A stretch of DNA of 61,867 nucleotides from Nannocystineae bacterium (GTDB lineage Bacteria; Myxococcota_A; Polyangia; Haliangiales; Haliangiaceae). Location of the stretch: contig SLNH01000037.1 of the NCBI GenBank assembly GCA_007133195.1, positions 1-61,867 of the forward strand. The letters are read 5' to 3'. Positions 32,252-45,844 of this stretch are shown one piece after another. The translations under genes and the position numbers were made by a program. The notes under the pieces are model-generated. The model was given only the letters and a program-made list of their open reading frames with translations. It ran no database searches and had not been told where the DNA came from. How positions within the stretch are numbered: the stretch's first letter is position 1; each line of letters begins with the position of its first letter.

Positions 32252-33451
32252 TCACTGGCGCTCTTCCCGGCGTCGCTCCCGCTCCCGCCGGCGCTCCTCG
32301 CGCTCGATTCGCCGCTCCTCGCGCTCGATGAGATCGCTCACCGCGCTCGCTTGCTCCTCGGCCCGATCGGCGTCGGCACCGGCGGTGCGCTGGTAATTAT
32401 CGAAGTATTCGTCGGCGCGGCGCAATCGCTCGAGCGTCTCGAGGTCGCCGTCTTCGCCGGGGAAGGGGTCCGCGTCGAGATACAGGATGCCCAGATTGTA
32501 ATACGCCGGGGCGTAGTCGCTATCGCGGCTGAGCGCTCGCTCGTAGGCCTGTTCGGCGCGCCGCAGATATTCGGCTCGCCGGTCCGGATCTCCGCGCGGT
32601 CCCTCTAGCTCCGAGGCGCGCCCGCGGTAGGCCGAGCCCAGATTGGTCCACGCCGCCGGACGCTCGTCGTCGAGCCCGCGCGTGAGCCGCTCGTAGACGC
32701 GAATCGCCTCGGGGTAGCGCCGGTTTTCGAGGTAGTGGACGCCCAGGTTGAGGAGCGCGTTTCCGTAGCCCGGCGCCAGCTCGACGGCGCGCTCGTAGGC
32801 TCGCTCTGCGCGCTCTGCGCGATCGGTCGCGTCGTAGACCAGCCCGGCGATGAAGTGATACCGAGGGTGATCCTGCGCGGCCGTCCGCTCCCCGGCCGCG
32901 TCGAGGATCTGCTCGGCCATGTCGTAGTTGTCCTCGATGTAGTGGGCCCACGCGAGGATCAGCATCGCGCGGAGATTCGCTTCGTCGACCGTGAGCGCCT
33001 CGCGCGCCTCGTCCATCGCGCGCGCCACATCCCGGGTATCCCCGCGGAGCGCCGCCTCGGCGCGCTCGAGGTGCTCCGCTGCGGCGCGCTCGGCGGCCCG
33101 CCCCTCCAAGTCGGCCCCCGGGGGAAGCGGGGGATCTTCATCCTCATCGGGCTCCTCGTCAGGCTCCTCGCCAGGATCCTCCGTCCCGGGCGCCTCGCCC
33201 GGGGCCTCGCCTGTATCCGGCACGTCGTCGGCGGGCTCCTCGCCCCGACCCTCGTCGGGCGGAAGCGTGTCCCCAGGCGCGCCGACCTGGCCGTCACCCG
33301 GATCGGCCTCCGCTTCGGGGGCCTTTGGCTCGCGCTCGCTCCCCGCCGCGCACGCCCCGAGCCCGACGCACAAGAAGGCGGCGCATGCCGCGACCCCGAG
33401 CCTCGAAATCGGCGCCGCAAAGCGCCCTGCCGCGCTCACCGAAGGCGTCAT
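32252..33451 (-). CDS. gltE: TPR lipoprotein, AglT/GltE-like
   Basis: 399 residues. The signal ends in FLCVGLGAC (lipobox). An acidic Pro/Glu linker (about 40-105) precedes six or so TPR units (about 110-370), e.g. YEDNYDMAEQILDAAGE, YGNALLNLGVHYLENRRYPE and YAPAYYNLGILYLD. The C-terminus is a highly charged Glu/Arg helix. AglT/GltE of Myxococcus is a TPR lipoprotein at the same place in the operon. The ATG at 33451 overlaps the previous stop by four bases (ATGA). Confidence 0.68.
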   Translation of the reverse strand: MTPSVSAAGRFAAPISRLGVAACAAFLCVGLGACAAGSEREPKAPEAEADPGDGQVGAPGDTLPPDEGRGEEPADDVPDTGEAPGEAPGTEDPGEEPDEEPDEDEDPPLPPGADLEGRAAERAAAEHLERAEAALRGDTRDVARAMDEAREALTVDEANLRAMLILAWAHYIEDNYDMAEQILDAAGERTAAQDHPRYHFIAGLVYDATDRAERAERAYERAVELAPGYGNALLNLGVHYLENRRYPEAIRVYERLTRGLDDERPAAWTNLGSAYRGRASELEGPRGDPDRRAEYLRRAEQAYERALSRDSDYAPAYYNLGILYLDADPFPGEDGDLETLERLRRADEYFDNYQRTAGADADRAEEQASAVSDLIEREERRIEREERRRERERRREERQ

Positions 33452-36400
33452 GGCTCGATCGTCCCCTCCACGATCGGTGTGCGGAGGATCGGGTAATCCT
33501 CCCGAGAGATGAAGTCGTGTAGCCGCGACTCGGCGAGCTCGCTCCACTCGTTGCTGATGCCGGCGCTCCGGGCCGCGTCCAAGACGTCCTCCCACTCCTT
33601 CTGCGCCGCGCGCTGCTTGGGATCCACGAGGTTTTGCTCCAGCGCCTCTTCGTACTGCAAAAGGACCCCTTCTTCCGGATGTTGGCGATCGAGCTGCTCG
33701 ATCCGCCGCGGCGGCGGCGCTCTTAGGATCTTTTGCCCCGACTCGAACAGGGTGTCGCCGACCCGCACGCGCGCGGCCATGCCCCACATGCCGGAGCCGA
33801 ACCGGCCGATGTCTTCATACGACGCGCGGATGTCGGCGGTGAGCTGGTCGAGCTCGTCGAGCACGCGCTCGGCCGCCTCCTCGCTGGCCGGAACCTGGTC
33901 GATGCTATACGGCTCGAACCGCCGCGCGTACTCGCGCTCCGCGAGCTCGAACGCGTATTCGGCCGCCATGTCCGCGGCGTCCGTGCCCCGCGGCTCGCCG
34001 ATCTCCTCCCAGGCCTCGATGGTCTGTCGCCGGTAGCGGTCGGCCGGGTTTTGCTGCCCTGCCTCGTCGTAGAGCTCCGCCGTGCGGTAGTAGCTGAACA
34101 CGTAGTCGGTTTCGTTACCCTCGTCCCGGCCGTACTCGTCCCGCCACGCCGCGTAGGCGCGAGCCGCGTTTTGCGGCTCCCCGGCGGCGCCGTAGGCGCG
34201 CGCGATGGCCCACTGCGCCCGATCCGAGTCGCGGCGATCGGGCTCCTCGTCACGGTAGCGCTCGTAGAGCGAGATCGCCCCGGTGCCCGGCGCGCCCTGC
34301 GGATCGTGATAAACCCGATCGAGCTCGCGCAAAAGCGCCGCGTTGTACAGGGCGTCTAGCCGGATCTCGCTCAGCGAGCGCTCCCCCGGCGGCTCCGGGC
34401 GCTCCGGCTCGGCCGCCACGTCCACCACCTCGAGGTAGGCGTCCACCGCGCGATCGTAGTCGAAGGCGCGCTGGTACGAGACGCCGCGCAAGTACAGCGC
34501 GTCGATGTAGTACTCGCTGTCCTGAAACGCAGCTTCGCCGCTGTCGGTGAACTCCTCGAACAGGCTCACCGCCGTGCGCGGGCGGCCGTCGCGATCGTAG
34601 GCGACCGCCGAGTTGTAAAGCGCCACGGGCCGATTCTCATCCTCCTCGGGCGCCTGCTTGTAGTAGGCGTAAAACGCCTGGCCCGCGTCGTCGTAGCGCT
34701 CGTCCCGGAACAGCGCCTCCGCGTCGCGAAACCGCCGCGAGCGGTTTTGGGCGAGCGCGAGCTCGATGGCCTCCTCGTCGCCGCACTCGTCTTCGATGAA
34801 GCGCGCGTTCGTCGACTCGAAGCGCTCGGTCTCGCCCCGGGCCTCGTAGATCGCCAACAGGCCGTCTTTGGCGCGCGCCGCCTCCTCCTCGCCGCAATAC
34901 CGGTCGAGCACGGTGTCGAAGCGCCCCTCGGCGTCGTCTAGGTGGAGGAACCGATAGGAGATGAGCGCCCCGTGCAGGGCGAGCTGGGCGCCCGCGTCGC
35001 CGGTGGGCTCGTCGATCATCGCCTGATACTCATCGAGCGCCTGTTGCTGCCGGCGGTATAGGTCGGGGATCGTGCGGGGCTCGACGGGCTGGCTCATCGC
35101 CCTCAGGTCTTCGACCGAGGGCGACTCGGGCGCCGGGATCTCGCCGGCCTCGGCGCGCTCGCGAATCGCGCCCTCGTAGGCCTGCACGAGCGAGAGCGCC
35201 GCATCATCGAACCGCGCCTCGCTGAGCTCGCGGCGGTCGCGCACCCACCGGTAGTGCTCCGCGGCCTCCAGGTAGTCGCGAGCGAAAAACCGGGTCTCGG
35301 CGAGGCGGTAGGTGAACTCGTAGGCCTCGGGAGCGGTGGGGTATTCGCGGACGAACCGATCGTAGAGATCGCTCGCCTCGCGGTAGAGATCGAGATAGCG
35401 CTGTTCCGCTTCGTCGCTGGGATCGAGCTCGTAGTCGCGGCGGGCGAGCTGCGCGCGCCGGTGCCGGTTTTCCGCGGCGGCGCGCAGCATGCGCTCCCCG
35501 ATGCGGCGGACGTTTTCCATCGCCTCGCGGTTGGTCTCGTTCGCCGCGTACCACTCGGTGCCGCGCGCGTAGGCGGTGGACAGGCGCGCCGCTTCGGCGT
35601 CGGCAGCGTCGTCGTCGCCGAGCGCCTCGAGCGAGTTGACGAGCTCCTGGTGGACGACCGGGTTGTCGGGGTGAAGAGGGTCCGTCTCGAGGCCGATGCG
35701 GTAGCTGTCGATGGCTTGTTCGTGAGCCTGAAGGATCTGAAACGTCTCTCCGAGCTGGACGAACACGTCGCGCACGTGCGGCTCGTCCAAGCGATCGCCG
35801 TAAAAGTCGAGCGCGCGCTCGAGGCTGCGCGCCGGGTCAGGCTGTTCTTCGAGGGTCCAGGGGTCGGTAAACGACACGGCGATGTACTGGATGGCCTCTG
35901 GCCTGAGCTCGAGGGGGTCCTCGCCCTGGGCGACGAGCTCGTCCGAGTACATCACCGCTTCATCGAAGGCCTCGATGCCGTCCAAGAAGTCGTCATTGCG
36001 GTAATACGACCAGGCGAGCTTGTACAGCGCCTCGTCGTAGTATTCGGAGTCTCGATTTTCGGCCACGCGCCGGTAGGCCGAGATCGCCTCCTCGAGCTCG
36101 CCCGGGGTATTGAAGTGGACGTCGCCCACGCCCCGGACCCATCCCTCCTCGATGAGCTGGGGGTCGTCGCCGAGGCCCTGGCAGCCCGCATAGGGGTCGT
36201 CGAAGGGCTCGTCCCCGCGCATGCGCGCCTCCACATCGCCTGGGGAGGGCTCATCGGGAGGCTCGGCGTTCGGGTCGAAGTGGTTTTCGCAAACGAGGCC
36301 GCGATAGACGGCGAGCGACTCGCGCTCCTCGCCCACCTGGCCGAGATAGTAGCCGAGCAGATACAGCGTCCCGGGCTTTTGCCGGTAGTCGGGAAACCGG

Positions 36401-37053
36401 GTGATCGTCTCCCGCCACATGTCGATGGCGGGGGAGTAATCCGGCCCCTGAAAGTCCGCGAGGCCGCCCTCGTCGCCTTCGGGATCGTCGGGGTCGCCCT
36501 CGGCCTGCGCCGCGAGCACGTCGTCGTCGTCGAAGGCGTCTTCGAATTCGAATTCGGCGCGGTCGAGGTACAGGTTCGCCAAACGGAACATGGCGTCCGG
36601 CGTGTACTCGTCGTGGTCGGGGTGTTCCTCGAGAAACCGCTCGAGCGCCGCGATCGCCTCTACGTGTTGGTTCCGGCGCTGATCGTGGACGACGTCGATC
36701 CGGCTGTCGTAGCGCTCGACGAGCCGCTGCCTGCGGATGTGGTACTCGCGCGACAGAAGCTCGCCGATCCGTTCGTGGTGGTGGTCGGCGACCTCGCGAA
36801 ACCGCTCGAAGGCGTCTCGTTTGCGGTTTAGCGCGCCCTGCTCCTCGGGGGTGAGGTCGGGCGCGTCTGGCGGTCTCAGTCCGGGGACCTGACGCGCCGG
36901 CAACGGGCTTTCGTCGGGGCCGCTTCGCAGATCCTCGTGGCCGGGCGCGCGGGCGTCGTCCGCCCTATCGGACGACGCGGCGATGTCGCCGGACGGCGCG
37001 ACCAGCGTCGCCGCCACCGCCAGGCCGAGCGCAGGGGGCATCACGCGGGTCAA
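33448..37053 (-). CDS. gltD: Large periplasmic TPR protein, AgmU/GltD-like
   Basis: 1201 residues, close to the ~1,200 I recall for Myxococcus AgmU (GltD). A short signal (ALGLAVAATLVAPSGDIAAS) is followed almost entirely by TPR-like repeats, e.g. DEYTPDAMFRLANLYLDRAE, PGTLYLLGYYLGQVGEERES, YYDEALYKLAWSYYRNDDF and RPVALYNSAVAYDRDGRPRT. It probably acts as a periplasmic scaffold. The start is a TTG: AGGAGG lies nine bases upstream (37063-37068) and the TTG overlaps the previous stop (TTGA). GTG 37044 and ATG 37041 are further in. Confidence 0.7.
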   Translation of the reverse strand: MTRVMPPALGLAVAATLVAPSGDIAASSDRADDARAPGHEDLRSGPDESPLPARQVPGLRPPDAPDLTPEEQGALNRKRDAFERFREVADHHHERIGELLSREYHIRRQRLVERYDSRIDVVHDQRRNQHVEAIAALERFLEEHPDHDEYTPDAMFRLANLYLDRAEFEFEDAFDDDDVLAAQAEGDPDDPEGDEGGLADFQGPDYSPAIDMWRETITRFPDYRQKPGTLYLLGYYLGQVGEERESLAVYRGLVCENHFDPNAEPPDEPSPGDVEARMRGDEPFDDPYAGCQGLGDDPQLIEEGWVRGVGDVHFNTPGELEEAISAYRRVAENRDSEYYDEALYKLAWSYYRNDDFLDGIEAFDEAVMYSDELVAQGEDPLELRPEAIQYIAVSFTDPWTLEEQPDPARSLERALDFYGDRLDEPHVRDVFVQLGETFQILQAHEQAIDSYRIGLETDPLHPDNPVVHQELVNSLEALGDDDAADAEAARLSTAYARGTEWYAANETNREAMENVRRIGERMLRAAAENRHRRAQLARRDYELDPSDEAEQRYLDLYREASDLYDRFVREYPTAPEAYEFTYRLAETRFFARDYLEAAEHYRWVRDRRELSEARFDDAALSLVQAYEGAIRERAEAGEIPAPESPSVEDLRAMSQPVEPRTIPDLYRRQQQALDEYQAMIDEPTGDAGAQLALHGALISYRFLHLDDAEGRFDTVLDRYCGEEEAARAKDGLLAIYEARGETERFESTNARFIEDECGDEEAIELALAQNRSRRFRDAEALFRDERYDDAGQAFYAYYKQAPEEDENRPVALYNSAVAYDRDGRPRTAVSLFEEFTDSGEAAFQDSEYYIDALYLRGVSYQRAFDYDRAVDAYLEVVDVAAEPERPEPPGERSLSEIRLDALYNAALLRELDRVYHDPQGAPGTGAISLYERYRDEEPDRRDSDRAQWAIARAYGAAGEPQNAARAYAAWRDEYGRDEGNETDYVFSYYRTAELYDEAGQQNPADRYRRQTIEAWEEIGEPRGTDAADMAAEYAFELAEREYARRFEPYSIDQVPASEEAAERVLDELDQLTADIRASYEDIGRFGSGMWGMAARVRVGDTLFESGQKILRAPPPRRIEQLDRQHPEEGVLLQYEEALEQNLVDPKQRAAQKEWEDVLDAARSAGISNEWSELAESRLHDFISREDYPILRTPIVEGTIEP

Positions 37054-39572
37054 GACGCGTCACCTCCTGCGTCGCTCGCGGCCTCTTCGGCCTCTCGCGC
37101 CCGATCTTCGGCCTCTCGCGCTCGATCCTCGGCCTCTCGCGCCCGGTCGGCCTCGATCACCTCGCGAAACTGCGAGTCGAGCGTCCTGAGCTCTCGGGCC
37201 CGCTCGAGCGTGAGGCTCCGCTCGCGCGCATCGAGCTCCTCTTTTTTGGCCCAGGCCACGTCCACCACGCCGACGTCGGCGCGGATCAGGATGTCCCCGA
37301 ACTCCTCGAGCACGGCGAGCATGCCGCCCCGCAAGACCTCGGCGCCCACTTCGCGGGCGGCGGCCTCGTAGGCTGCGAGCTCCTCGCGGTGGATCTCGAG
37401 CTCTGCGACCTGTTCGGCGAGCTCGTCCTGCACGTCGACGAGGAGTGCTGACGCCAGCTCGTCCACCTGACTCGTGACGCCTTCGAGCTCGCCGAGAATC
37501 GAGCCCGCTCGATCGTGGAGCGAGGCGATCTGGCGCCACTCGGTCTGCCCGTCCTCGCCGATCCGCCCGCCGATCTGGGCGAGCGCCCTGTGCTCGGCGT
37601 CGATCGACGCCCGCAGCTCTTCGTGGAGCTCGCGGGCCCGGCGCTCGCGCTCGTTTCCGGCGCGATCGCGCGCGAGGGTGGCCTCGCGCCTCAGCGCGCG
37701 GAGCTCGCTGCGAAGCTGCTCGATCGTGCGCTCCTCCGCGGCGATGCGCTCGCGGATCTCGGCGACGTCTTCCGGATCCGCATCCGGCATACCGTGGTCT
37801 TCGATGTAGGCGACGAGGGCGGTTAGCTCGGCCTCCGCGCTGCGGACGAGCGCGCGCACGCGGCTGGCTTCGGCGTCTATGTCGTCGTAGCGCTCGCGCG
37901 CCCGCGCGCGGCGTTCCCCGTACGGTGCGTCGGCGTCGGGGAGCTCGGCAATCTCGCGCGCGATCGCGCGCCGCTCGTCGCGGAGCTCGCGCAGTCGCGA
38001 CCCGCTCACGCCGGCCTCGTCGGCGATCTCCTGCTGGCGCGCGCTGAGATCGGCGCGCATGGCCAGCACGCGCTCGGTGGCCTCCGTGGCGCGCGCGCGC
38101 TTTTGCGCCAGCTTCGGGAATACGTTCGCGCGATTTTCGCCGCGTACCGCGCCCTCCACCCGCGCCGCCGACAGCTCGGCGGTTTCGATCTCGGCGCGGA
38201 CGGCCGACAGCTCCTCGCCGATGGCGACGAGCGTGCCGACGTCGGCCTCCTCGCGCAGCCAGGCGACGGCGATTTCGGAAAGCCGCGCGTCGGGCTCGGG
38301 GAGGTCCGCGTCGTGGTCCGCGTCGTGGTCCGATACGTGGCCGGTCACCTGGCCGAAGAACCGGAGCGGATCGTCGTCGTCGCGCACGGCGCTCTCGATC
38401 TCCTCGTGCGCGTCTTCATAGGTGCGCTTGGTCGACTCGAAGATTCGGGTCGCCCGCGCGTACTGCTCGGCGCTGTTTCCACGCTCGCCGATGTCCGCCA
38501 GCTGCTGCGCCCTGCGGATGCGCAGATTCCCCTCGAGGATCCGCACCTCGGGCATGCGCGCCGAGCTCGGATCGGTGAGGCCGAGGAGCTCCAGCGCGCG
38601 CAACGCGCGTTCGAATTGGTCGTTTCGCACGTACACCCACGCCGCTTCGTACAAAGTGTCATCGAAGCGATCCGAGTGACGGGAGACCTCGAGGTAGCGA
38701 TCGATGGCCTGGATCGGCTCGTCGCGCTCGTAGTGGATCCGCGCGAGCGCCAAGTGCCCGAGCTCGATCACGCGGGCCTCGTTGGCGGTCGTGGGCTCGC
38801 GGTCTACGAGATCGGTTAACACGTCGGCGGCCGTGGGGAGCTGGCCGAGGGCCACATAGCTCGCGGCGATGAAGTACTGGGCCTGCAAGTAGCGCTCGGC
38901 GCCCGGCTGGATTTCCTGGAAATGCTCGATGGCCGCGGAGTAATCCTCGGAGAAGTAGGCGTGCCTGCCCTGCGCGTAGGGCACGACGTCACCGCGGTCG
39001 TCGTCGGAAAGGTCGCTGAGCGCCTCCAGCCAGGGGTCGGCGTCGTCGTCGTCGAGCTCGAGGCTGAGCTCGACCAGCCGCCGCAGGGCGCGCACGTAAA
39101 AGCGACTGGCCGATCCCCGCTGTTCGGCGATTTCCGTGAAGTAGGTGCGCGCGGCGACGTGGTCTCCCTTTCTGAACAAAGACTCGCCGAGATAGTAAAG
39201 CGCCGTGTCGTAGCCCGGGGAGTCCGGGTGCTCTTCGACGATGTCGTAGAGCAGCAAGGCGGCGTGGTCGTAGTCACCGCTGCGAAACGCCACGCGGGCG
39301 CTCACCAGGCGCCGCTCCCCTTCTTCGGTGTGGTGGAGCTGGCCGAGGTGTCCGGGGCGTTCGAGTGCCTGCCCTAGCGCGCGCGCCTCCGCCTCGAGCC
39401 CGATGAGCGACTGGCCGATCTCGTCGATCGAATCGGCCGGCGAATCGGCCGGCGAATCGGCCGAATCGGCCCGAGCCACCTGGGCGGCGCCGGCGGCGAA
39501 CACGGCGAGCGCCGCCGTGGCCACGCCTGTGCGGAGGCGCCGGGGCCCCGCGCGCGAAATGCTCATCTTCAC
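37050..39572 (-). CDS. Exported TPR and coiled-coil protein of the glt-like operon
   Basis: 840 residues. After a Sec-type signal (RLRTGVATAALAVFAAGAAQ) come TPR repeats (about 50-360: YDHAALLLYDIVEEHPDSPG, PGAERYLQAQYFIAASYVAL) and a long charged coiled coil (about 430-830). The end consists of AREAEDR repeats. Position suggests a periplasmic structural part of the same machine; GltC of Myxococcus is also a TPR protein, but I cannot claim orthology. The first codon is GTG at 39572 (overlapping the previous stop); an ATG two codons later is equally possible. Confidence 0.75.
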   Translation of the reverse strand: MKMSISRAGPRRLRTGVATAALAVFAAGAAQVARADSADSPADSPADSIDEIGQSLIGLEAEARALGQALERPGHLGQLHHTEEGERRLVSARVAFRSGDYDHAALLLYDIVEEHPDSPGYDTALYYLGESLFRKGDHVAARTYFTEIAEQRGSASRFYVRALRRLVELSLELDDDDADPWLEALSDLSDDDRGDVVPYAQGRHAYFSEDYSAAIEHFQEIQPGAERYLQAQYFIAASYVALGQLPTAADVLTDLVDREPTTANEARVIELGHLALARIHYERDEPIQAIDRYLEVSRHSDRFDDTLYEAAWVYVRNDQFERALRALELLGLTDPSSARMPEVRILEGNLRIRRAQQLADIGERGNSAEQYARATRIFESTKRTYEDAHEEIESAVRDDDDPLRFFGQVTGHVSDHDADHDADLPEPDARLSEIAVAWLREEADVGTLVAIGEELSAVRAEIETAELSAARVEGAVRGENRANVFPKLAQKRARATEATERVLAMRADLSARQQEIADEAGVSGSRLRELRDERRAIAREIAELPDADAPYGERRARARERYDDIDAEASRVRALVRSAEAELTALVAYIEDHGMPDADPEDVAEIRERIAAEERTIEQLRSELRALRREATLARDRAGNERERRARELHEELRASIDAEHRALAQIGGRIGEDGQTEWRQIASLHDRAGSILGELEGVTSQVDELASALLVDVQDELAEQVAELEIHREELAAYEAAAREVGAEVLRGGMLAVLEEFGDILIRADVGVVDVAWAKKEELDARERSLTLERARELRTLDSQFREVIEADRAREAEDRAREAEDRAREAEEAASDAGGDAS
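37063..37068 (-). promoter_or_regulatory. Strong Shine-Dalgarno site that decides the TTG start of the GltD-like gene
   Basis: AGGAGG on the minus strand, nine bases before TTG 37053 and inside the end of the upstream gene. The alternatives GTG 37044 and ATG 37041 lie 18 and 21 bases away, too far for efficient use. Confidence 0.55.
37087..37149. repeat. Three 21-bp in-gene repeats encoding AREAEDR
   Basis: The string TCGGCCTCTCGCGC recurs at 37087, 37108 and 37129 (21-bp period) and encodes the helical AREAEDR heptad repeats at the C-terminus of the coiled-coil protein. Confidence 0.75.
39429..39471. repeat. Short 12-bp tandem repeat just after the signal-peptide codons
   Basis: CGAATCGGCCGG occurs three times in tandem plus a shortened copy and encodes a Pro-Ala-Asp-Ser repeat after the signal peptide, a likely site of length variation by slippage. 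Confidence 0.7.
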
Positions 39573-40471
39573 TCGCCTGCTCGTTCCCCGGCCGATTCGG
39601 TCACGACGTGAAAATCGAGGGCGGGCCGATCCTCGAGCGGCACCGATGCACCGCCGCGCTCGTGCCCGCGCACTTCGACGACGGTTCCCTGTCCTTCGCG
39701 GGCGTTGAACGTGTGGCTGGACCGAACCGTAAACCGATAGTCATCCACGTAGGGAAACACGCCGTAGCCGTGACCCTCGTACTCCGCGATCACGCTGAGG
39801 GTGTGGTTTCCGGGCGGCAGCGGCCCCGAGAGGATCTCGAACTGGTCCTGCTCGTGGAGGTCGTCGCCGCTGCGGGCGAAGATCTGCGTTCCGTCGAGCG
39901 CGTATACGAGGCGCACGAGGCGAAACGCACGGCCCATGTCGTCGATGTGGACGATGGATGCGCGCGCGCCGAGTCCGCCGCCGAGCACGCTTTGCTGCAG
40001 CATTCCGACCTGCGCCTTGGAGCGCCAGGCGCGCTCTTTGAGCGCCTGGACGTCGCGCTGAAGCTGGCGCAGGCGCACGTTTGCCGGCAGGTCATCGTCG
40101 TCGCGGGCGGAGGCGTCGTCGAGCGCGGGCGCGTCGCCCACCTCGGCGGCGTCGTCCACCCCGGCGGCATCGCCCTCCTCGGCGGCGTCGTCCACCTCGG
40201 CGGCGTCGTCCACCTCGCCGTCAGCCGGATCTTCGGCCTCGGGCAGCGCGCCCTCACCACCCGGCGCGTCCGCTTCGAGCGTCGTTTCGGGTTCCGGAGA
40301 TGCGTCCCCGGTGCCCGCTTCGGCGCCTTCCCGCGCGTTATCGGCATCGTCACGTTGGCTCGCCTCGCCGTCTGCGCCGTCGTCTGCGATCGCAATATTT
40401 GAAGCGAGCCCGAGAGTGAGCGCGAGGCCGAGAGCCAAGGCGCCGCGCGCGGCGGAGTCCAATGAGCGCAT
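39569..40471 (-). CDS. Exported acidic-linker protein, first gene of the glt-like operon
   Basis: 300 residues. The signal (GALALGLALTLGLASNIAIA) fits the ATG at 40471, which is preceded by AGGGGG. An Asp/Ala/Glu-rich repeat region (about 30-125) is followed by a helix (RLRQLQRDVQALKERAWRSK) and a beta-rich domain with VHIDDMGRAFRLVRLVYALD and GPLPPGNHTLSVIAEYEGHG. I do not know the family. Its stop overlaps the next gene (GTGA), so it belongs to the same transcript as the TPR genes. Confidence 0.72.
   Translation of the reverse strand: MRSLDSAARGALALGLALTLGLASNIAIADDGADGEASQRDDADNAREGAEAGTGDASPEPETTLEADAPGGEGALPEAEDPADGEVDDAAEVDDAAEEGDAAGVDDAAEVGDAPALDDASARDDDDLPANVRLRQLQRDVQALKERAWRSKAQVGMLQQSVLGGGLGARASIVHIDDMGRAFRLVRLVYALDGTQIFARSGDDLHEQDQFEILSGPLPPGNHTLSVIAEYEGHGYGVFPYVDDYRFTVRSSHTFNAREGQGTVVEVRGHERGGASVPLEDRPALDFHVVTESAGERAGE
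40139..40222. repeat. 18-bp tandem repeats encoding DDAAEV
   Basis: Four full copies and part of a fifth, with the best pair being CACCTCGGCGGCGTCGTC at 40139 and 40193. They encode the acidic linker of the exported protein. Confidence 0.7.
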
Positions 40472-40603
40472 CCTAACCCCCTGCTGGATCAGCGCGGGGC
40501 GGAACAACGACAGCGTACCCGCGCGCATCAATGACTGGCTGTCATTTGTAACACCACGATTTTTCACCATCAAGCTGGTGGGCACGTGTGGTGACAGGCA
40601 CCT

Positions 40604-42465: not shown

Positions 42466-43212
42466 TTACGCTCGCGTTGACCGTTGCTGCGCCACTGATG
42501 AGCCCGCGTCACCGCCGGTATCCGTCACCGGCCTCAGCTCGATCACCTCGCGTTGGTCCGGTTTCGGCACGGCCTGGAGCACCTGGCTGTACCGGTCCAC
42601 GGTCACGGCATGGCGAGCGTCCTCGAGAAACTCGGGGTTTTTGCGGATGCGCCGCTGTACCCGCTCGCTGTCAAAGCAGGACGTGGCCGCGGTTTCGTCG
42701 TCGAAGCTCTCCCCACGCATGAGCTGCGTGAGCGCGGCCGCGCATGCCTCGTCCTCGACCCGCTCCGCCGCCGTGTCGAAGTGGCCGGCGGGGAGAACGG
42801 TGACGCGGTCGCGTGCCCACGCCGTGGCGACCGACGCCGCGGCGCGCAAGTTCGTAAACGACGCCAAATAAACGCGCGTGGTCACCGACAGCGCGGCGCT
42901 TATCGCCTTTGTCCCGTTCGTCGTCACGAGCACAGGCGTGCGCGCGCCGAGATCGATTCGCGCGGCGAGGGCGGGAGAGTTATCGACCTGCTCGTGGGGG
43001 TTGTCCTCGATGCTGAGCTCGCTAAACACGAGGTATCCCTCGGGCTTGGGGGGGAGCCGTCCCAGCGCGTCGGGATGGCCGACGACGAGGATCGGGGACA
43101 CCCGGCTCGCGAGCGCCGCCGCGGTGGATGTCGCGCGGAACACATCGATCACGAGGGCCACGTCGAGATCGTGATCTCCAATATTTGCTGGGTGAAGCCG
43201 GTCGATCCGCAT
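42466..43212 (-). CDS. comB: 2-phosphosulfolactate phosphatase
   Basis: 248 residues of the ComB family. Typical parts are ALVIDVFRATSTAAALASRV near the N-terminus, LVTTNGTKAISAAL, VLPAGHFDTAAERVEDEACA, and a helical end. It removes phosphate from phosphosulfolactate to give (R)-3-sulfolactate, the second step of the phosphoenolpyruvate route to coenzyme M and of sulfolactate formation in Bacillus spores. The ATG at 43212 is used; the frame continues far upstream over comA without any conserved sequence. It is divergent from comA. Confidence 0.87.
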   Translation of the reverse strand: MRIDRLHPANIGDHDLDVALVIDVFRATSTAAALASRVSPILVVGHPDALGRLPPKPEGYLVFSELSIEDNPHEQVDNSPALAARIDLGARTPVLVTTNGTKAISAALSVTTRVYLASFTNLRAAASVATAWARDRVTVLPAGHFDTAAERVEDEACAAALTQLMRGESFDDETAATSCFDSERVQRRIRKNPEFLEDARHAVTVDRYSQVLQAVPKPDQREVIELRPVTDTGGDAGSSVAQQRSTRA

Positions 43213-43413
43213 CTCAATGACCCCCTGCTCGGCGATGACGCCCCACAGCCGGGCGCGGTACGCCCGCGCGCGACAGTCTACCGCGCGAGGCGATAGACGC
43301 GGAAGGGGAGGCGCATCCCGAGCTCCGGCCCCCCATCGCTTCTGGAAGACCGTGAGCATCCCCTTTTGCCTGCACCGCTCCGAGCCGCAGAGAGAGTATG
43401 GTAGGATACCTCC

Positions 43414-44187
43414 ATGACAGGCTCGGCAATTGACCGGCTTCGGTCTGTGCTGCTTGACGTCCCGCGGACCACGAAGCCTCGCGTAGGCGGCGTCACGATG
43501 ATGCTGGACAAGGGGCTCGGGCCGGCCGAGGTGGAGAGCCTCACCGACGTGGCCGCGGATCACATCGATTACGCGAAGATCGCCTGGGGCAGCTCGCTCA
43601 TCACTCGAGACCTCGAACGCAAGCTGGAGCTTTACCGTGCCAGGGACGTGATCCCGACCCTCGGCGGGTCGCTCTTCGAGTATGCGCACCTTCGCGGCCA
43701 GGTCGAGCCTCTCTTGGATTTCGTGAAGGAGGCGAAGCTCTCGATCGAGCTCTCCGACAGCATTTGCCATATTTCCAGGCGAGACAAGCTCGCGTGGATC
43801 GAGCGATTCGCCGCCCATGGCCGCGTGCTCTCCGAGGTGGGGCGAAAGACGGAGCAAGTCGATCAGCCCTGGACCCAGCGCATCGCCGACGAGATCGAGG
43901 CAGGGGCCGAAAAGATCGTGATCGAAGGCCGAGAGATCGGACCGGCCAGCGGCGAGTTCCGCTCCGATTTGGTCGAGCAAATGGTCAGCGAATTTCCCGC
44001 CGAGAAGCTGATATTCGAGGCGCTCGAGCGGAAGCAACAGGTCTCGCTCATCAAGCAACTCGGGCCCGACGTCAACCTCGGCAATATTTTGCCCCACGAC
44101 GTGCTGACGGTCGAGTCGTTCCGCCGCGGGTTGAAGGAGCACACCCTCCTCCACATGCACGACCGCGTAAGCCGATCCGCCCTGTAA
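43414..44187 (+). CDS. comA: Phosphosulfolactate synthase
   Basis: 257 residues with the ComA TIM-barrel signatures: GVTMMLDKGLGPAEVESLTD, YAKIAWGSSLI, TLGGSLFEYA, ISRRDKLAWIERFAAHG, SEVGRKTE, and VIEGREIGPASGEF. It adds sulfite to phosphoenolpyruvate. With ComB encoded next door the sulfolactate route is complete. No ComC, ComDE or archaeal-type coenzyme M genes are in the window, so the end product is open. The stop is 19 nt before ggt. Confidence 0.9.
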   Translation: MTGSAIDRLRSVLLDVPRTTKPRVGGVTMMLDKGLGPAEVESLTDVAADHIDYAKIAWGSSLITRDLERKLELYRARDVIPTLGGSLFEYAHLRGQVEPLLDFVKEAKLSIELSDSICHISRRDKLAWIERFAAHGRVLSEVGRKTEQVDQPWTQRIADEIEAGAEKIVIEGREIGPASGEFRSDLVEQMVSEFPAEKLIFEALERKQQVSLIKQLGPDVNLGNILPHDVLTVESFRRGLKEHTLLHMHDRVSRSAL

Positions 44188-44206
44188 CTTACAGCGCCTG
44201 GTCCTC

Positions 44207-45844
44207 GTGAGCTCTCGCGCCACCATCCCCAACCTCAAGTACGAGCACGGCACCGTCGTATCCTACGACCCTATCGCGTCCGCGATGGGCAGCAGGGTGC
44301 TCCTCGAGGGCGGTAACGCCGTGGATGCGGCGATCGCGACCGGGTTCGCCTTGGCGGTCGTGTATCCGCAGGCCGGAAATTTGGGCGGTGGGGGATTCAT
44401 GATGATCGCCCCGAACGACGGCAACGTGGAGTTTCTCGACTACCGAGAGACCGCGCCGCGCAAGCTGGACGCCGAGCAGCTCATCACGCCGGCGAGCGGT
44501 CTGCGTGCCCCGAGCGTGTTCGGTGCGCTGTCGGTCGGCGTCCCCGGCACCGTCGCCGGTTTCGCGGAAGCACATAAGCGGTACGGCCGGCTGTCGTGGG
44601 ATCGCGTGATCGGCGTCGCCATCGATCTGGCCGAGAACGGGTTTCGGCTCACCACGCGACAGGCGGCCTACTTCTCGCGGTATGCCCAGGATCTCAGTTA
44701 TTTCGACTCCACACGACATTACTTCATGTCGAAAGGAGCCGACTACCTGCCCGGCTCACTCATCCAGCAGCCCCATCTCACCCGCTGCCTCCGCCTGCTC
44801 GCGGATCGCGGGCCCGAGGAGTTTTACGAGGGCAGCATCGCGGAGCTCATCGCCAACGAGATCGAGGCCGGCGGAGGTGTGCTCGATCTCGACGATCTGA
44901 GGGCGTACGAGGCCCACTGGCGGAACCCCATCACGACGCGATTTTTGGGCAAGGAGGTCATCAGCTCGCCCTTCCCGTCGGGCGGAGGCATGGTCATCGC
45001 GCTCACGCTCCGCCTCCTCGAAGCGTCTGGGATAGACGCGCACCCGCCGGGGAGCCTGGCGCGCTACAACCTCCTCGGGCGATGCTTCCGCGTGGCGTTC
45101 TCGCTACGACACCGCTATGCGGCCGATCCAGAGACGCTCACGCCCGAAGACGTCGAAGAGATCGAAAACCTGTTTTCCATGGAACTCAAGGCGGGGGATC
45201 TCGAGCGCTTCACCGAGACCATCGTGAGCCAGGAAACGGCGCACGCCGAATCCCTTGATAAGAACACGACCCACTATTGCGTTCTCGATGCCGAGGGCAA
45301 CGGGGTGTCGAACACGTACAGCCTCAATACGCTCTTCGGCTCGAAGCTGGCGGTCTCGGGGGCGGGGTTTCTTCTGAATAACAGCATCGATGACTTTCGC
45401 ATCGGGGAGAATATCCCCAACTGGTACGGGATCATCGATGGTCCGAGAAATCAGCTCATGCCGGGCCGGCGCCCCGTCGGCTCGATGGCGCCCACCATCG
45501 TCCGCTCGAGTAACCGGCCCGCCGTGGAGCTCCTCATGGGCGGATCCGGAGGCCCCACCATTCCGACGCTGGTGACGCAGGCGATCGTCGGAACGGTCAT
45601 CGACGGCAAGTCGCTCCACGAAGCGCTCGACGCGCCGAGGGTGCACCATCAGTTCCAGAAGGCGGAGCTTTGCGTCGAGGACATGGTGCCGGCCGAAATT
45701 CGCGAGCAGCTCTTCGTGGGAGATCCCGATCCCGTCCGCACGGTGCTCCGGCTCGGCATCGGCGCTGGGATCGAGCGCGATCCCAGCACCGGACGCGTCG
45801 TGGGCGCCCTCGACAAACGCTTCAGCCACTACGCGGTGCTCTAG
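44207..45844 (+). CDS. ggt: Gamma-glutamyltransferase family protein without signal peptide
   Basis: 545 residues. It follows Ggt closely: EGGNAVDAAIATGFALAVVY, PQAGNLGGGGFMM, FLDYRETAPRK (substrate Arg), GVPGTVAGF, the self-processing NTTHYCVLDAEGN with T354 as expected N-terminal nucleophile, LLNNSIDDF and RPVGSMAPTI, LLMGGSGGPTIPTLV. Typical Ggt proteins are exported; this one starts directly at the mature domain (GTG at 44207), so it should work in the cytoplasm. It lies 19 nt after comA on the same strand, which suggests a shared pathway. Confidence 0.9.
   Translation: MSSRATIPNLKYEHGTVVSYDPIASAMGSRVLLEGGNAVDAAIATGFALAVVYPQAGNLGGGGFMMIAPNDGNVEFLDYRETAPRKLDAEQLITPASGLRAPSVFGALSVGVPGTVAGFAEAHKRYGRLSWDRVIGVAIDLAENGFRLTTRQAAYFSRYAQDLSYFDSTRHYFMSKGADYLPGSLIQQPHLTRCLRLLADRGPEEFYEGSIAELIANEIEAGGGVLDLDDLRAYEAHWRNPITTRFLGKEVISSPFPSGGGMVIALTLRLLEASGIDAHPPGSLARYNLLGRCFRVAFSLRHRYAADPETLTPEDVEEIENLFSMELKAGDLERFTETIVSQETAHAESLDKNTTHYCVLDAEGNGVSNTYSLNTLFGSKLAVSGAGFLLNNSIDDFRIGENIPNWYGIIDGPRNQLMPGRRPVGSMAPTIVRSSNRPAVELLMGGSGGPTIPTLVTQAIVGTVIDGKSLHEALDAPRVHHQFQKAELCVEDMVPAEIREQLFVGDPDPVRTVLRLGIGAGIERDPSTGRVVGALDKRFSHYAVL

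Follow-up and report, generated by a model that had tools for sequence, protein, structure and literature searches.

Why does a gamma-glutamyltransferase gene (ggt) lie directly behind comA, with comB diverging from the pair, in a bacterium of the Nannocystineae? The question is raised by a stretch of 61,867 nucleotides (the window), which corresponds to contig C292 in a draft genome of 5.6 Mb (496 contigs, 99% complete). To our knowledge, the bacteria that make sulfolactate are not well mapped apart from spore formers and users of coenzyme M, and a conserved comA-comB-ggt unit would be a clear marker for them. Such a unit would also be a test case for an intracellular Ggt, in a compartment where the glutathione pool could be met.

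A sequence-only reading of the window had named the three genes, and these identities are borne out by Pfam profiles: ComB matches PF04029 (E=4e-25, 89 bits vs a cut-off of 26), ComA matches PF02679 (E=8e-63, 212 bits vs a cut-off of 25) and Ggt matches PF01019 (E=5e-131). Among the NCBIfam equivalog models, Ggt is above the TIGR00066 cut-off (386 vs 358 bits), ComB is below those tried (67 vs 235 bits for the best ComB model) and ComA is below that of TIGR03849 (189 vs 280 bits), an archaeal model that a true bacterial enzyme may miss too. A 595-aa open frame (42466-44253) was rejected as comB in favour of the ATG at 43212, which has a good ribosome site (AGGGGG). The comA stop (44187) and the GTG start of ggt (44207) are separated by 19 nt, in agreement with the spacing first read. 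The locus (Table 1) is flanked by housekeeping genes, obgE on one side and gatB and gatA on the other, and the G+C content of comA-ggt is about 63-65% vs about 67-71% in the flanks, which is compatible with acquired DNA but no proof of it. A promoter scan detected no sigma-70-like promoter in 43213-43413, and promoter and terminator scans yielded nothing further. Elsewhere in the window, three genes lie end to end on the reverse strand (33448-40585), two of them with TPR repeats, and the gene at 37050-39572 has a weak likeness to the gliding protein GltC (72 of 450 bits).

Table 1. Features of the comB/comA-ggt locus, in window positions.
Feature	Positions	Strand	Basis
comB, 2-phosphosulfolactate phosphatase family (PF04029)	42466..43212	-	profile matches; ATG 43212, AGGGGG upstream
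comB/comA divergent intergenic region	43213..43413	.	201 bp, from gene coordinates
comA, phosphosulfolactate synthase family (PF02679), loop-deleted clade	43414..44187	+	profile, tree, alignment, model
comA codons for EGREIGPASGEF, residues 171-182, loop-deletion site	43924..43959	+	alignment
ggt, gamma-glutamyltransferase-type Ntn hydrolase without signal peptide, predicted cytoplasmic	44207..45844	+	profiles, alignment, tree
ggt codon of predicted autoprocessing/catalytic Thr354 (E. coli T391)	45266..45268	+	alignment

ComA is rare: 5 of the 35 genomes from the order encode it, as do 10 of the 318 from the class and 3 of the 379 that were sampled from the phylum. Five Myxococcota ComAs, from the window and from the genomes G006, G015, G476 and G014, form one clade (support 100/99), in which the alignment shows that about 5 residues of the loop following the RESG motif of canonical ComA are missing and that the Ser of this motif, next to an invariant Glu, is replaced by Ile or Val. 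The clade retains all 18 positions (K137 included) that are invariant in a 16-sequence sample of the family comprising, among others, the M. jannaschii, B. subtilis and coenzyme M cluster enzymes. A structural model of moderate confidence (pLDDT 72; four input sequences) has as its best PDB matches 1u83 and 1qwg, which are phosphosulfolactate synthases. As modelled, the fold and core of the clade ComA are of the phosphosulfolactate synthase type, the exact reaction being predicted from these relatives. The reaction of this ComA is uncertain because the loop is lost, and the earlier statement that sulfolactate requires no more than ComA and ComB has to be lowered to a prediction, in view of this loss beside the invariant motif and of the score below the archaeal equivalog cut-off. 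The same loop is likewise missing in two distant plasmid homologues, from Chelativorans and Bradyrhizobium. A separate ComA-like family (L011, L054, L055 and L069), whose three Myxococcota members are at least 64% identical among themselves, possibly does not consist of phosphosulfolactate synthases; its Bradyrhizobium representative (L069) is a distant ComA-like gene located downstream of annotated MmgE/PrpD and PrpF genes. In another genome (G455, L053:6192-7670, reverse strand), ComA and ComB are fused in a single open frame in which both Pfam domains score above their cut-offs.

The lack of an export signal noticed in the sequence-only reading holds as well, as the Ggt frame has no N-terminal extension and starts close to where the mature E. 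coli enzyme does, unlike the canonical Ggt paralogue of the same genome (G000:C319), in which a signal sequence is present. With N-termini judged by eye, the signal is absent in all four comA-linked Ggts, and almost all other Ggts inspected in the order start with lipoprotein or Sec-like segments. The four linked Ggts constitute one clade (100/100) with a long stem; those of G006, G015 and G476 are 49-50% identical to the window Ggt, while the others in the order reach at most 40%. In the alignment (E. coli numbering) they retain T391, R114, N411, D433, S463 and G483/G484, and differ at Q/E430, which is Ser or Thr in all four, and at S462, which is Gly in three. This S462G change was rejected as a defining mark of the linked Ggts, Ser462 being retained in G476. 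R114 and positions 430, 433 and 462/463 are known to belong to the pocket (PMC8062742), and the altered residues at 430 and 462 suggest a changed substrate, although with a pocket that appears partly changed ordinary gamma-glutamyl hydrolysis is also possible.

The comA-ggt pairing is not peculiar to this genome, being found in four genomes that belong to three genera and two families and that display three arrangements, which supports the coupling of a sulfolactate module to ggt proposed at first reading. In the window the order is comB<->comA-ggt; in G006 and G015 (same family, sister genus; matching the public MAGs MGR_bin5 and RYN_365) it is ggt-comA-comB on one strand, with listed frames that overlap at both junctions in G006 and are 1-3 nt apart in G015; in G476, from another family, ggt and comA are arranged head to head, with 50% and 53% identity to their window counterparts, and comB is on a separate contig. 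The trio has no NRPS or ligase gene as a direct neighbour in the window, G006 or G015, and the neighbours of the G476 pair are a glycosyltransferase gene, a penicillin-amidase gene and a line of FAAL/NRPS genes. The clade ComA of G014 (matching RYN_366) is within an NRPS cluster, in a genome with neither ComB nor the linked Ggt type. In a class-wide survey, in which the top four Ggt candidates were scored in each of 318 genomes, the linked type was confined to the four genomes above, all with clade ComA and ComB, and the next best candidates were at 37-40%. The hypergeometric value for this co-occurrence is 1.2e-8, a purely descriptive figure that takes no account of shared ancestry. The linkage is more than chance, as it recurs in three lineages, and a rough chance estimate for three of five genomes lies at about 7e-9 to 6e-8. 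All relatives are draft assemblies, the five clade genomes being 59-99% complete and three of them below 90%.

Outside this clade, the further ComA loci inspected in the phylum encode different ComAs and have no full ggt nearby. A single-sequence ComA search of genome contigs gave no match, and a search with the clade alignment returned three known relatives only. ComAs from plasmid records are at most 37% identical, plasmid Ggts among the matches listed are 34-38% identical, and none of seven plasmid comA neighbourhoods contains an annotated ggt. Two further neighbours were considered and set aside: a HATPase-like gene near comB in G006, G015 and G476, as the G476 protein is 24-28% like the others and the window has no counterpart, and haem-oxygenase-like genes beside the G006 trio, none of which was seen among the neighbours of the G015 trio. 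On the comB contig of G476 (L082:4537-7555), comB overlaps a MATCAP-family gene, which in turn overlaps a glutamate-dehydrogenase-like gene. The G014 NRPS cluster (L063; clade comA at L012:1431-2216) also encodes a circularly permuted ATP-grasp, a thioesterase, a lantibiotic-dehydratase-type protein and a TauD-type dioxygenase.

No description of a comA and ggt gene set was found in the open-access literature (searches were partly swamped by clinical GGT papers), in line with the first reading, which knew of no such pathway. The nearest known module is yitCD (comB-comA) of B. subtilis, where sulfolactate is a major spore component (PMC517825). As in the window, the ComB and ComA genes are together there without coenzyme M genes, although the available part of that report mentions no linked ggt and YitD retains the RESG loop that is missing from the window clade; the yitBA-yisZ operon, for sulfite supply, is inferred in the same part to share the pathway (PMC517825). 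Bacterial coenzyme M clusters (Xanthobacter, Nocardioides, Mycolicibacterium and Methylocystis plasmids) also encode a ComA family enzyme, with lyases and a PLP enzyme as neighbours and without annotated comB or ggt, whereas the trio of the window lacks such neighbours; a PAPS reductase gene is near the Nocardioides cluster. As for Ggt, those of S. aureus (GisABCD-Ggt) and N. meningitidis are reported as cytoplasmic and serve cysteine/sulfur acquisition (PMC10355420, PMC8062742); they act inside the cell, as predicted for the window enzyme. The S. aureus enzyme has no export signal either (PMC10355420), although it is proven to hydrolyse glutathione and is linked to a glutathione importer, not to comA/comB. 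YwrD is also intracellular, without an assigned role (PMC8062742), and LmbA and Ant6 are Ggt homologues recruited to biosynthesis (PMC5519988). These are Ggt-family Ntn hydrolases like that of the window, but they cleave a C-C bond in alkylproline formation, with no ComA partner mentioned.

We are confident that comA, comB and ggt form a conserved unit. This trio very probably works as one functional unit, because the ComA and Ggt clades are special, the linkage is conserved and the Ggt type co-occurs with ComA and ComB, and Ggt likely shares a pathway with ComA/ComB. The best explanation overall, although a tentative one, is a cytoplasmic sulfonate unit in which Ggt would tailor a sulfolactate-derived specialised compound. 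ComA would convert phosphoenolpyruvate and sulfite into phosphosulfolactate and ComB would remove the phosphate to give (R)-3-sulfolactate, as their families predict, and the dedicated cytoplasmic Ggt, an Ntn hydrolase/acyltransferase, would trim or form a glutamyl-like amide of a small molecule of the pathway. Such a specialised compound, and not coenzyme M or cysteate, would be the end product. This tailoring role is supported by the location of the G476 pair beside FAAL/NRPS genes and of the G014 comA within an NRPS cluster, by the precedent of LmbA/Ant6 (PMC5519988) and by the lack of any match to ComC (PF02615) in the five clade genomes (59-99% complete), which argues against an archaeal-type coenzyme M or a ComC-type cysteate route. 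The conjugate of cysteate or a taurine-like amine envisaged earlier loses ground with it, ComC being the usual next enzyme towards an amine. What speaks against tailoring is that the trio lacks a neighbouring NRPS or ligase gene in the window, G006 and G015, that the Ggt pocket is altered in part only, that the loop loss makes the ComA reaction doubtful and that the relatives are all drafts. More doubtful is the extended proposal of an undescribed pathway in which loop-deleted ComA, ComB and a repurposed Ggt would yield a glutamyl- or amide-linked sulfolactate compound, built by NRPSs into lipopeptides in some lineages.

We prefer tailoring of a sulfolactate product to a supply of sulfur from glutathione, in which Ggt would open cytosolic glutathione or gamma-glutamyl-cysteine (or an S-sulfonate) and the sulfur would end as sulfite for ComA. 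This supply, already raised in the sequence-only reading, is possible but rather unlikely: glutathione synthetase is present in all five clade genomes, both bacterial Ggts reported as cytoplasmic serve sulfur acquisition and sulfite-supply genes accompany comA/comB elsewhere (yitBA-yisZ, PMC517825, and the Nocardioides PAPS reductase gene), but none of the five (three of them less than 90% complete) has a match to cysteine dioxygenase (PF05995), which argues against the commonest route from cysteine to sulfite. Moreover, no peptidase or sulfur gene lies beside the trio, the Ggt pocket residues are altered, and hydrolysis of the cell's own glutathione would presumably be a futile cycle. It is unlikely, too, that ComA is not a phosphosulfolactate synthase and performs a related addition to another acceptor, with ComB dephosphorylating the product and Ggt modifying it. 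The clade-wide loop loss with the Ser-to-Ile/Val change, the score below the equivalog cut-off and the two clade members in NRPS clusters would be consistent with this, but the full set of sampled invariant residues, K137 included, is retained, the model matches solved phosphosulfolactate synthases and ComB is present in every genome with the linked Ggt. That ggt and comA/comB are mere neighbours, co-transferred or co-regulated without a common pathway, is improbable, since the linkage survives three arrangements and the co-occurrence is strict across the 318 genomes, even if the lower G+C fits block acquisition and three of the four carriers come from one family.

A different association of comA is found in a plasmid of Legionella lytica (NZ_CP071528.1; L066:5823-8735), where a 970-aa fusion combines a fatty-acyl-AMP-ligase-like domain, a carrier domain and a loop-retaining ComA, with comB after it and a class I/II aminotransferase-fold gene before it, a gene set that suggests an acylated sulfonate product.
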